A stretch of DNA of 22,847 nucleotides from a virus. The DNA lies in the IMG/VR virus record IMGVR_UViG_3300020401_000101, positions 1 through 22,847 of that record; one strand, given 5' to 3'. The notes beneath the pieces were generated by a model that worked only from the letters and a program-made list of their open reading frames with translations, ran no database searches and was not told where the DNA came from. Position numbers and translations under genes: made by a program. Each line of letters begins with the position of its first letter. Position 1 is the first letter of the stretch. Below, one piece after another: positions 4,497 to 17,166 of the stretch.

Positions 4497-7400
4497 TTAT
4501 TTATTGCGTAAATTTTGAATATTTTCGATATTTTTTCTTCTATAGTTTCCTGTACTTTTTAATGTTTTTAAATTATCAATTCTTCTATCATCTCTTTCTT
4601 TTATAAGCTGCCTTACTTCTGGGTGATTTCTAATTTTATTAAATGCTCTTTTTTTTGCTAATTGAAATATCCTTTTAATTTCAGCATTATGAACATAAGC
4701 TTTCATTGGGTCTCTACCACGATTACCATTATTCATATCAAATATCATTCTATTTATTGAAGCTTGCATTTTTGGATCATCTGCTAACGCATTAAGTTGT
4801 GCTTCAATATTTTGATCGCCAATAGCTTTTGCAAATAAAGATCGAACTCTTGCATTTTTACTAAAATCTAAACCTTCATATGAATATGTAGTTGTTCTTA
4901 AATCGTATCCACTATCAAATAAGAATTTTCTTCCTTTACTGTAATCTAAATTAATAGTAAAGGGACTAAACATATTAAACATACGAGTTGGAAAATCCCA
5001 ATTTCTAATTGGGTTACCAGTTAAAGTGTCAAATTTAGTTGGCAATTCAAATGCTGCAACACCTTCTAAATATAAATTTCTATTTCTGAATGATTGCAAT
5101 ATTCCTGAATTTATTTCCTTCATATAAGGATTAAATACCTTACCTAATTCATTTCTTAATGATGATAATGGAATCGTATTGTTAGCAATACTTGCAATTA
5201 TTCTTTCCATTGATCCTGGTTTACCAGCAAATAAATCAACAAACTGTTGCATACTTGCTAAGTACGATTTGCTAGACAAACCTTGTGCTAAAACAATAGC
5301 TAATTTTCGATATTGATCCTCTGTCCATTCTGGACCCATTTGATCAAAATGGTCTCCAATATCACCAATAGTAGAAAGTATTAGGTTAAATGGTTCGAAA
5401 GAATCATAACCTACCCATACTGGACCTATTTTCATACTTCTTGGTCTCCATCCAGCATCTATCCAGGTCTGTCGTTTTTGCCTATCAGCAGGGCCATTGC
5501 CAGTTAAACCACCATTTATGTAATGCATATTTGCTAACAAAATTAAACTACTACCAATAGCAATTCTTCCTTGTCTTAAGGCTTTTGCGTTAGCTAAATC
5601 TTTTGCATCTTTTATTCCATATATTGCTAAATCACCTAAATTATCTGGTGTCGCTTTCATTATGTCTCTCGACTCTTTTACAAGTCTGTTAAATAATGGT
5701 GTATGTTTTGCTGTTAAAGCCAAACCATTCATACCAGTTCTAGCAAATAAAAGAAAAGGTTTAGTCCAAGGACTTGATTCAAATGCAGCATCTAATTTTG
5801 CTGAAAAACCTTGCAGTTCATTTGTTAGTGTTGCCTCTTTTTTTGCATATAAAGCAGCATCATCAATAATATTTCCATCACCATCCATTATTTGTTTATA
5901 AAATCTTTCTTGTGCTTCCATTAACATGGGTGGTGATATCTCTGTAACTTTTCCAGCATTAAAAAGATCCATTGCTTCACGCATTGCTCTTTCTTTTGCA
6001 GTAGCTCTAGCTAATATCAAACCGAATGCATCATCAGTTGCACCCATTATTTTTGTTGAATAAGTTAAAAATTTATTATCATTTAGTGCCCTAGTACCAT
6101 TTGCTATGTGAAATGCTAACTTGTCGCCATCTGTAGCTCTACCACTGTTTTCTATCCAATCAGTGTACATAGCCCACTGTTCATCACCTTTTGTAAATTG
6201 GTTAAATCTACTTTTAACAGTTGCAATATCGCCAGACCAATAACCGTTTAAATTATGTTTAAATAATTCCCAAGCTTCTGGAATAGATTCTCTCATAGCA
6301 TTCATAGCAGCCATTGATGCTCTTAATGTTGCACCATCACCACGAATACCAGCACCCACTGCCATAGATAAAGGACGTAAAAATGTGGCTGTACCAGTAC
6401 CAAATATTGCTCTCATAGGAGTTTTTGGACCACTAAGCACACTATTAACCATGACCTTACCTAAACCTTTAACTATTAATCCTTGCTCAGTCTTACCTTT
6501 TATTTTTCCGCCTCTAAACTTTTTCCTTATATAGTTATCGTAATCAGTAAGTGTATGTATCTCACCTGTAAATGATATAGCTTCTTGAATTGCTTTAAAT
6601 AAATCATCATTGTCACTTGTACCAGCAATTTCATATGCTAACTTATGTGCTTTTTTTGATTCAGCCATTTGTTTGTTTACAGCTTCAAACACTTCAGCTT
6701 TTGATTCTTTTGTAAATACTTTTCCAGCTTTAAAATCAGAAAACTTTTTTGAATGAGTCATTTTTGATAATTTAACTTGCGTTAAACCAGCTATAACTTT
6801 GTCATACGTTGCTTTGGCTGGACCATCTACATCAGTTAAATTTGCATAATCATAAAGTTCTCTGTTTGTTATTCCAGAGTCTCTTATTTCTTTTAAAAGA
6901 GATCCTATAACTAAATCAGCAGCTGCTACATTTTTAGGATCCCAGACAGCAAACTCTTCAGCTGTACCAGTATTAACAGTTGTTTTACCACGATTAAGTA
7001 AATCCCAAAACTCGTCAGCAGTTAATTCACTAGTATTTCTACCTTCCATTATTTGTTGTGCTAACTCAACTGAGTCTTGCCATACCTTATGTAGTGGTAA
7101 GTTTTGTGCTTTAGCAGCCGCAACTTCTTCTTTAACTCTTGCATCACTCATATAAACTTTCATAAGTTTTACAAGTTCTGCTTCAGCCATTTCACTAGTA
7201 CGTTTCATACGATCAAGTGAAACTGGTGTGGTTACAGAACCAGTAGAACCACCTTCAGCTCCATATTCTGTTCTTATTCTTTTCAGTTGTTGTTTTACGT
7301 TGTATAACGGTTCAGTCGAAGTAGGTGCAGCTTGCGTTTTACTCGCAATGTTTTTATTTTTATATGCACCGAATCCTGGAAACTCTAATTGTTGTACCCC

Positions 7401-15544: not shown

Positions 15545-16033
15545 TTAGAATGCAGAAGGAGCTGTAGCACCTACGTACAATTCAACAGCAGCAGCTGGGT
15601 TTAGGTAATCTGCCCCCATAGCCATGCGTCCCAATATAACATCACCTTGGTATATAACCGAGACATCTCCATTGGTTACTTGGACTTGTGGTCCGATTGC
15701 CTCAACAACTCCAGCAGCTTCTTTTTGGAAAATTAAACCAGCAGACTTAGCCCCTAACTCAGCGTTAGTACCGTAGTCGTTGTTTACTCCGCCAGTAGCA
15801 TTAGCGTTTTCTGGTGTAGGTCCAATGAAATCACCAAGATTTCCAGGACTTGTTTCACCTGTTGTACCGCCGTACTTAACACCATACTTACCTAAGAATG
15901 GAATATTCATAGATTTGTAGATGTGTATTCCAGCAATTTCGATAACGCCACTACCACCTTGTAAAGCAGTACCCTGTACGTCTCTGTTTACTAATCCGTT
16001 AGAACCAATGTCCTGAATTAGTGCATAATATTG
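15545..16033 (-). CDS. Major capsid protein, exon 2 (C-terminal part)
   Basis: These 162 codons plus stop encode the C-terminal part of the T7 gp10-like capsid protein. The exon begins at CAA (QYYALIQDIGSNGLVNRDVQ), which lines up with the T7 capsid segment SPDQYSALL. Later parts (GIHIYKSMNIPFLGK; VGTVAAVE-like end LNPAAAVELYVGATAPSAF) fit the family, where the IP/P-domain region precedes a short C-terminus. The frame can be read back to a TTG at 16036, but those bases belong to the intron 3' end, so this is not a separate gene. Spliced to exon 1 (16231..16860) it gives about 372 residues, the normal size for this family. A strong terminator follows. Confidence 0.9.
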   Translation of the reverse strand, partial: QYYALIQDIGSNGLVNRDVQGTALQGGSGVIEIAGIHIYKSMNIPFLGKYGVKYGGTTGETSPGNLGDFIGPTPENANATGGVNNDYGTNAELGAKSAGLIFQKEAAGVVEAIGPQVQVTNGDVSVIYQGDVILGRMAMGADYLNPAAAVELYVGATAPSAF

Positions 16034-16230
16034 CAATTTGGACTATATCATCATCCTATAAGGATGTCGGACGCTATTCATGTATTACGCACTACGTTCT
16101 TAGTGCTCCATGTAGTCTCTGAACCTTCCCTTCAAGCGTGAAGGGCTTGGCTGCTGATTGGGTATAAACCGTTCCAGCAATTCATCCGATTATTCGATCA
16201 AGATTACTCTTGAAAGCCGCCAATATGTTA
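16034..16230 (-). ncRNA. Group I intron (group IA-like, no ORF) in the major capsid gene
   Basis: This 197-nt element splits an otherwise continuous capsid frame. P1: exon CCGU|UAA pairs with UUGGCGG (U·G at the splice site). P2: 16213..16198, UCAAGA-GUAA-UCUUGA with a GNRA loop. P3: 16189..16183 with 16073..16067. P4: UGCUG/CAGCA. P5: GGU/ACC. P6a: 16145..16128, seven pairs. P7: GACUA (16117..16113) with UAGUC (16045..16041) inside the classic UUCAGAGACUA and AUAUAGUCC elements. A GCACUA/UAGUGC hairpin sits between P7 5' and P3 3', the P7.1/P7.2 position typical of subgroup IA. P8: 16066..16052. P10: intron AUAUUG (16226..16221) pairs perfectly with the first six bases of exon 2. The intron ends in G at 16034, as required. 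No endonuclease gene lies inside. Confidence 0.93.
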
Positions 16231-16860
16231 ACGGGGGTTTAGTACAGCACATCTACCATCAGTGCTAACTCCTTTTTCATCTAAAGCAGCAGCAGCATCA
16301 TAGAATGCGTTTACTAGGTTTCCAGCGTTAAAAGCATCAGATTCGTTAGTTGTAGAACCAACTCTGATTTGTGTTCCACCAGGCTCTTCAAAGTTTGTTG
16401 CAGATACTGGAGATGCAGATCTAGCTCCTCGTGTAATAGAACGGAAGATTAGTCTGTCATATTTCTCAGCAAGAGCATATCCAATCTTCTTAGATATTTC
16501 TCCTCTCAATTCATAATGTGCAAGTGTCTCATCTAAGTCATAAACAAAAGCTGAACTGATTAATAGATCGTCCATTACGATTGTTTTTTCTGCGACTGGA
16601 GGAGCCTTGTCAGCATTTCCAAGTATGGGGGTTCCAGGTGTGTGGAACGAACTTGTCATGCGTCCAGTGTAGATAAACTGCAATGATTTGCCGTTCTTTA
16701 AGGTTCTCTTAGTAACGAGATCTCTAGCGATAGTCTCGTGTTGGAAGCCTTTGAACATTTCCCCACTGAACAATTTTAAGTACAAATTATACTTATCATT
16801 GTAGCCAGTACCAGTCGCTAAATTTGAGCGACCTAAACTGACCTGATTAGCATTAGCCAT
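16231..16860 (-). CDS. Major capsid protein, exon 1 (N-terminal part)
   Basis: These 210 codons start at ATG 16860 (MANANQVSLGRSNLATGTGY). The body has the T7 gp10-like HK97-fold N-terminus: KLFSGEMFKGFQHETIARDL, KNGKSLQFIYTGR, TPGTPILGN, and MDDLLISSAFVYDLDETLAHYELR, then KIGYALAEKYDRLIFRSI. It ends at CGT (Arg210); the following TAA is the first intron triplet, so the apparent stop at 16230..16228 is removed by splicing. The frame joins to Gln of exon 2 at 16033. The protein assembles the icosahedral shell around the scaffold. No good Shine-Dalgarno precedes the ATG (AACTGAAAAA). Confidence 0.92.
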
Positions 16861-17103: not shown

Positions 17104-17127
17104 CCTAAGCCCCGTTCCATGCTTAGG
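17104..17127 (-). other. Hairpin in the psbA 3' untranslated region
   Basis: CCTAAGC and GCTTAGG form a perfect seven-pair stem with a ten-base loop (ATGGAACGGG), about 40 nt after the psbA stop. A smaller hairpin TCCC-TTAC-GGGA (17148..17137) precedes it. Neither is followed by a U-run, so they look more like mRNA-stabilising or processing structures than intrinsic terminators. That role is inference. Confidence 0.5.
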
Positions 17128-17166
17128 ATTCATGCGTCCCGTAAGGGATGAACGGACGTGACAGTA

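Follow-up and report, generated by a model that had tools for sequence, protein, structure and literature searches.

What interrupts the major capsid gene of a T7-like marine phage, and is the interruption a switch or a parasite? The question is raised by IMG/VR record IMGVR_UViG_3300020401_000101, positions 1 to 22,847, a stretch of viral DNA that was analysed in full and is termed the window here. The minus strand of the window carries a T7-like morphogenesis block in which psbA immediately precedes the capsid gene, an arrangement shared with Prochlorococcus phage P-SSP7, and the capsid frame within this block is split into two minus-strand open reading frames (ORFs; 16860-16228 and 16036-15545). 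A Glutamine-II riboswitch match (RF01704, 49.4 bits) lies between psbA and the capsid gene, at window 17104-17157 (-), and the capsid gene is likewise preceded by this riboswitch in records L082-L085, L128, L150, and L199. A preliminary description of the locus attributed the split to an ORF-less group I intron of 197 nt and proposed that this element times or gates late assembly. The first of these claims holds, and the element is very probably a self-splicing group I intron, mobile or neutral, that parasitizes the capsid gene of P-SSP7-like (Tiamatvirus-like) marine phages.

The identity of the interruption is evident from an Rfam cmscan search of the whole window, in which the full RF00028 model matched 16240-16020 (-) with 89.2 bits (E 6.5e-22), above the gathering threshold of 50. 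Joining 16860-16231 to 16033-15545 removes exactly 197 nt and yields an open frame of 372 aa, the product of which aligns end to end with the P-SSP7 capsid protein gp10 (PDB 2xd8, E 2.5e-230). The frame had been described as breaking at Arg210 and resuming at Gln211, and the same boundaries are recovered in two ways: the junction 16231/16033 has the top score among all U/G choices tried near the Rfam match (205 versus 182 for the next), and in a global DNA alignment with the uninterrupted gene of P-SSP7, the sole large gap falls exactly at position 630/631 of the capsid coding sequence (CDS; window numbering). The predicted joined-exon sequence at 630/631 reads ...CCCCCGT/CAATATTATG. Read on from exon 1, the first in-frame codon of the intron is UAA, so translation of unspliced RNA would stop after 210 residues. 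At its 3ʹ end, the intron reads UUG (16034-16036, minus strand), a possible start codon in frame with exon 2, and as a consequence ORF lists give a spurious ORF of 163 aa.

Table 1. Coordinates of the capsid gene, its intron, and the seven insertion sites in the homologous gene
Feature	Position	Strand	Basis or remark
Exon 1, major capsid gene, codons 1-210	16231..16860	-	ORFs, spliced frame, match to P-SSP7 capsid
Group I intron, 197 nt, ORF-less, site A (capsid CDS nt 630/631), last base omega-G	16034..16230	-	Rfam, frame, junction test, P1/P10
P10 strand AUAUUG, just 5ʹ of guide	16221..16226	-	Pairs with exon 2 start, 16033-16028
Internal guide sequence GCGG	16217..16220	-	Pairs with exon-1 end CCGU (16234-16231), forming P1
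P7 5ʹ strand GACUA, guanosine-binding helix	16113..16117	-	Invariant across intron set
P7 3ʹ strand UAGUC	16041..16045	-	Invariant across intron set
Exon 2, major capsid gene, codons 211-372 and stop	15545..16033	-	ORFs, spliced frame, capsid match
Site D	capsid CDS 99/100
Site G	inside codon 72
Site E	after codon 114
Site A	capsid CDS 630/631
Site A'	capsid CDS 634/635
Site C	capsid CDS 1007/1008
Site B	capsid CDS 1020/1021

The pairings that were proposed to fix both splice sites are present in the intron (Table 1). P1 consists of 4 bp (CCGU/GCGG) with a U·G pair at the 5ʹ splice site, and P10 is perfect, with 6 of 6 bp formed between AUAUUG and CAAUAU of exon 2. The remaining helices of the preliminary description are likewise found, namely P2 with its GNRA loop (GUAA), P3, P4, a short P5, P6/P6a, P7, hairpins at the P7.1/P7.2 position, and P8. 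To this description can be added that the window intron has no P9 hairpin; its 3ʹ end lies 7 nt past P7, and the P9 drawn by Rfam is fitted onto exon 2. Assignment to group IA is putative and is based on the P7.1/P7.2 position. With a length of 197 nt and stops in all frames, the intron contains no internal homing endonuclease gene.

The window intron belongs to a larger set. In IMG/VR, 29 ORF-less group I introns of about 195-233 nt are found in the homologous capsid gene, at seven sites and in 21 records. These introns were collected by pattern and protein scans followed by Rfam or frame analysis, and comprise 24 mapped to splice sites plus five more, with seven sites in all; the 5ʹ boundaries drawn by Rfam at sites E, G, and A' were wrong and were reset by frame and P1. 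The intron-bearing records are metagenomic and mostly fragments, and the window and record L085 are counted separately among the 21, although L085 is nearly a duplicate of the window and contributes little as independent evidence. Site A is occupied in four other records. A single capsid gene, that of G006 (L097), carries four introns (sites D, G, A', and C), and two introns each are present in L082, L084, G002, G005, and G007. The introns of G006 represent two core subtypes, GGUUCAGAGACUA and GGUGCAWCGACUA, and sites C and D are each occupied by either core subtype in different phages. Site-A-like pattern matches in L108 and L109 were rejected as chance, having neither a group I intron nor a capsid match. 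A preference of the seven sites for unusually conserved codons was not significant overall (p 0.14), yet sites D and A are nearly invariant.

That the members of this set are true introns is supported by pairing that is specific to each site. Across 14 distinct site/sequence combinations, P10 forms a mean of 5.0 of 6 pairs with its own exon 2 versus 2.7 with the exons of other sites. None of 5040 site permutations reached the observed pairing, which is therefore site-specific across the seven sites, and at sites B and D, exon and intron vary together. Moreover, in an alignment of 14 introns, 35 of the 48 predicted helix pairs show at least one two-sided compensatory change; P7 is invariant and hence uninformative for covariation. 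These data also bear on the possibility of an artefact of assembly, or of a dead and degenerate insertion that has broken the capsid gene. The window is indeed a metagenomic record, and its intron has a short P5 and no P9; against this, the same insertion is present in independent contigs with diverged flanks, the core is intact with an invariant P7, the exons are open, and P1 and P10 are exact. We give this explanation almost no credence. As a self-splicing intron, the RNA would fold within the late transcript, P1 and P10 would bring the exons into line, guanosine would attack after the U of codon 210, and ligation of the exons would restore the full capsid protein.

Intron-bearing alleles are in the minority. 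Among the matches listed, about 8% of capsid loci (9/115) have at least one interruption, in a sample chosen by exon sequence near the 3ʹ end of the capsid gene alone. Matching records of T7-like cyanophages in the phage collection showed no capsid-gene intron, and a scan of bacterial and archaeal species genomes for close matches to the intron pattern found nothing. This distribution is pertinent to the proposal that the intron is a regulatory device, whereby regulated or slow splicing would time capsid production and late assembly. Such a role would suit an intron located in the virion gene with the strongest expression, and also the immediate stop at UAA that unspliced RNA would encounter. 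However, most close relatives, cultured ones included, lack the intron, its presence is patchy and spread over seven different sites, and there are signs of horizontal transfer. For these reasons a mobile element is favoured over a control device, which is very unlikely, and the proposed timing of assembly finds no support. Given seven invaded sites, the capsid gene is better seen as a target for mobile introns than as the site of a switch, and the intron is probably nearly neutral to the phage. The intron of the window would be one member of a related, ORF-less set with at least seven points of entry into this gene.

Evidence of mobility comes from the exons. Between the window and L082, identity is 97.4% from -132 to +867 relative to the capsid ATG and 79.4% elsewhere, a gain of 128.5 log-likelihood units. 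This tract, common to two intron-bearing genomes at an identity above background, is of the kind taken as co-conversion, although L082, the one contig on which the shared tract mainly rests, could be an assembly chimera; L082-L084 are from consecutively numbered data sets. Much of the neighbourhood in G009 matches the window at approximately 93% identity; divergence increases within the capsid gene, which in this record has a site-C intron instead of one at site A. As sequence comparisons, the L082 and G009 patterns fit recombination that moves introns together with flanking exon. Related phages would then exchange the intron by recombination that takes along neighbouring exon DNA, and a free-standing nuclease acting in trans may initiate the process.

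No HNH_3, GIY-YIG, or LAGLIDADG_3 nuclease was found in the intron-bearing records tested, and searches for HNH_3, GIY-YIG, Endonuclease_7, HNH, and LAGLIDADG_3 found no nuclease near the capsid gene. No free-standing nuclease was found adjoining the capsid gene in these records, the window itself being a fragment; the four matches in other records (Endonuclease_7 in G009 and G010, HNH in G001 and G053) are all far from the gene.

For the mobility step only, an RNA route is a rival, in which the intron reverse-splices into a nearby, weakly matching site and recombination follows, with no homing endonuclease. The introns most similar to intron A are those at site C of the same capsid gene (about 83%), and the copy of G001 at that site has the same unusual AAGAAC-type P7.2 hairpin. 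Additionally, L082 carries introns at both sites, and the guide sequences, GCGG and GCAG, are one base apart. These points, and the failure to find an adjacent nuclease, count in favour of the RNA route; the similarity and the shared hairpin suggest a move from site C to site A inside the capsid gene, an origin that is only suggested because the intron tree is poorly resolved, with low support for the exact branching and hence for a placement of A within the C group. The exon tract would also be explained by a free-standing nuclease that acts in trans, as in the psbA system of S-PM2. We consider the RNA route unlikely, if tenable. Slightly more doubtful is its extension to a multi-site landing zone, where introns would copy themselves from site to site by reverse splicing, retune guide and P10, and then pass between phages by ordinary recombination, again with no homing endonuclease.

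The capsid intron has several known counterparts. In marine cyanophage S-PM2, a psbA group I intron and the free-standing endonuclease F-CphI constitute "collaborative homing" (PMC6083498). The S-PM2 intron is likewise short and without its own ORF, and its related core is about 60% identical; it differs in residing in psbA of a T4-like phage with the nuclease gene next door, whereas none was found adjacent to the capsid gene here. Mycobacteriophage LittleE also has an intron within its major capsid gene, most likely group I, with splicing proven by RT-PCR (PMC3706429), but that intron is 819 bp, contains a LAGLIDADG-like reading frame, and occupies one site in an unrelated phage (PMC3706429). 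The same paper cites a capsid-gene intron in lactococcal Tuc2009. Huge Jug phages of the gut carry many group I introns of approximately 206 nt in essential genes, and metatranscriptomes support the splicing of 37 of the 76 (PMC12363816). They resemble the present introns in length, type, and choice of essential genes; the phages differ in being gut phages of 360-402 kb, and the targets named are terL, nrdD, and polymerase, with no capsid example among them. Group I introns also occur in T7-like phages in the DNA polymerase gene (Bonocora and Shub 2004, as cited in PMC6083498), a different gene and site, and some encode a nuclease.

Two Vibrio phages provide a further parallel. Their terL is split by short ORF-less group I introns, four in vB_VpaM_R16F (L111) and three in 1.193.O (L113), which the deposited annotations leave unmarked. 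In these phages, as in the capsid set, several short introns (three to four) interrupt a single essential late gene, and the closest R16F copy is about 72% identical; they differ in that the gene is a terminase and the genomes are 130-140 kb. In a different phage lineage, L098 (G008) has as many as three larger group I intron matches in tandem at 4910-6710, and an ORF that resembles a LAGLIDADG homing endonuclease by eye immediately precedes a putative capsid-like ORF.

Late genes of phages, capsid genes included, are already known to harbour introns, and short ORF-less phage introns are known as well (PMC3706429, PMC6083498, PMC12363816). The earlier view that no intron had been described in a podoviral capsid gene stands for the T7-like cyanophages in the phage collection and for the literature searched, but not as a statement about capsid genes of other phages. 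No description of the capsid gene of T7-like marine phages (cyanopodoviruses) as a seven-site intron hotspot was found in the open-access literature searched. One practical consequence is that intron-bearing capsid genes will be split or overlooked by gene callers and by surveys based on capsid sequences. With several sites, no nuclease found, roughly 8% occupancy among the matches listed, and close alleles with and without introns, the capsid gene is a natural setting in which to study the spread of short ORF-less introns and to ask whether splicing carries any cost for a phage in its most-used late gene.
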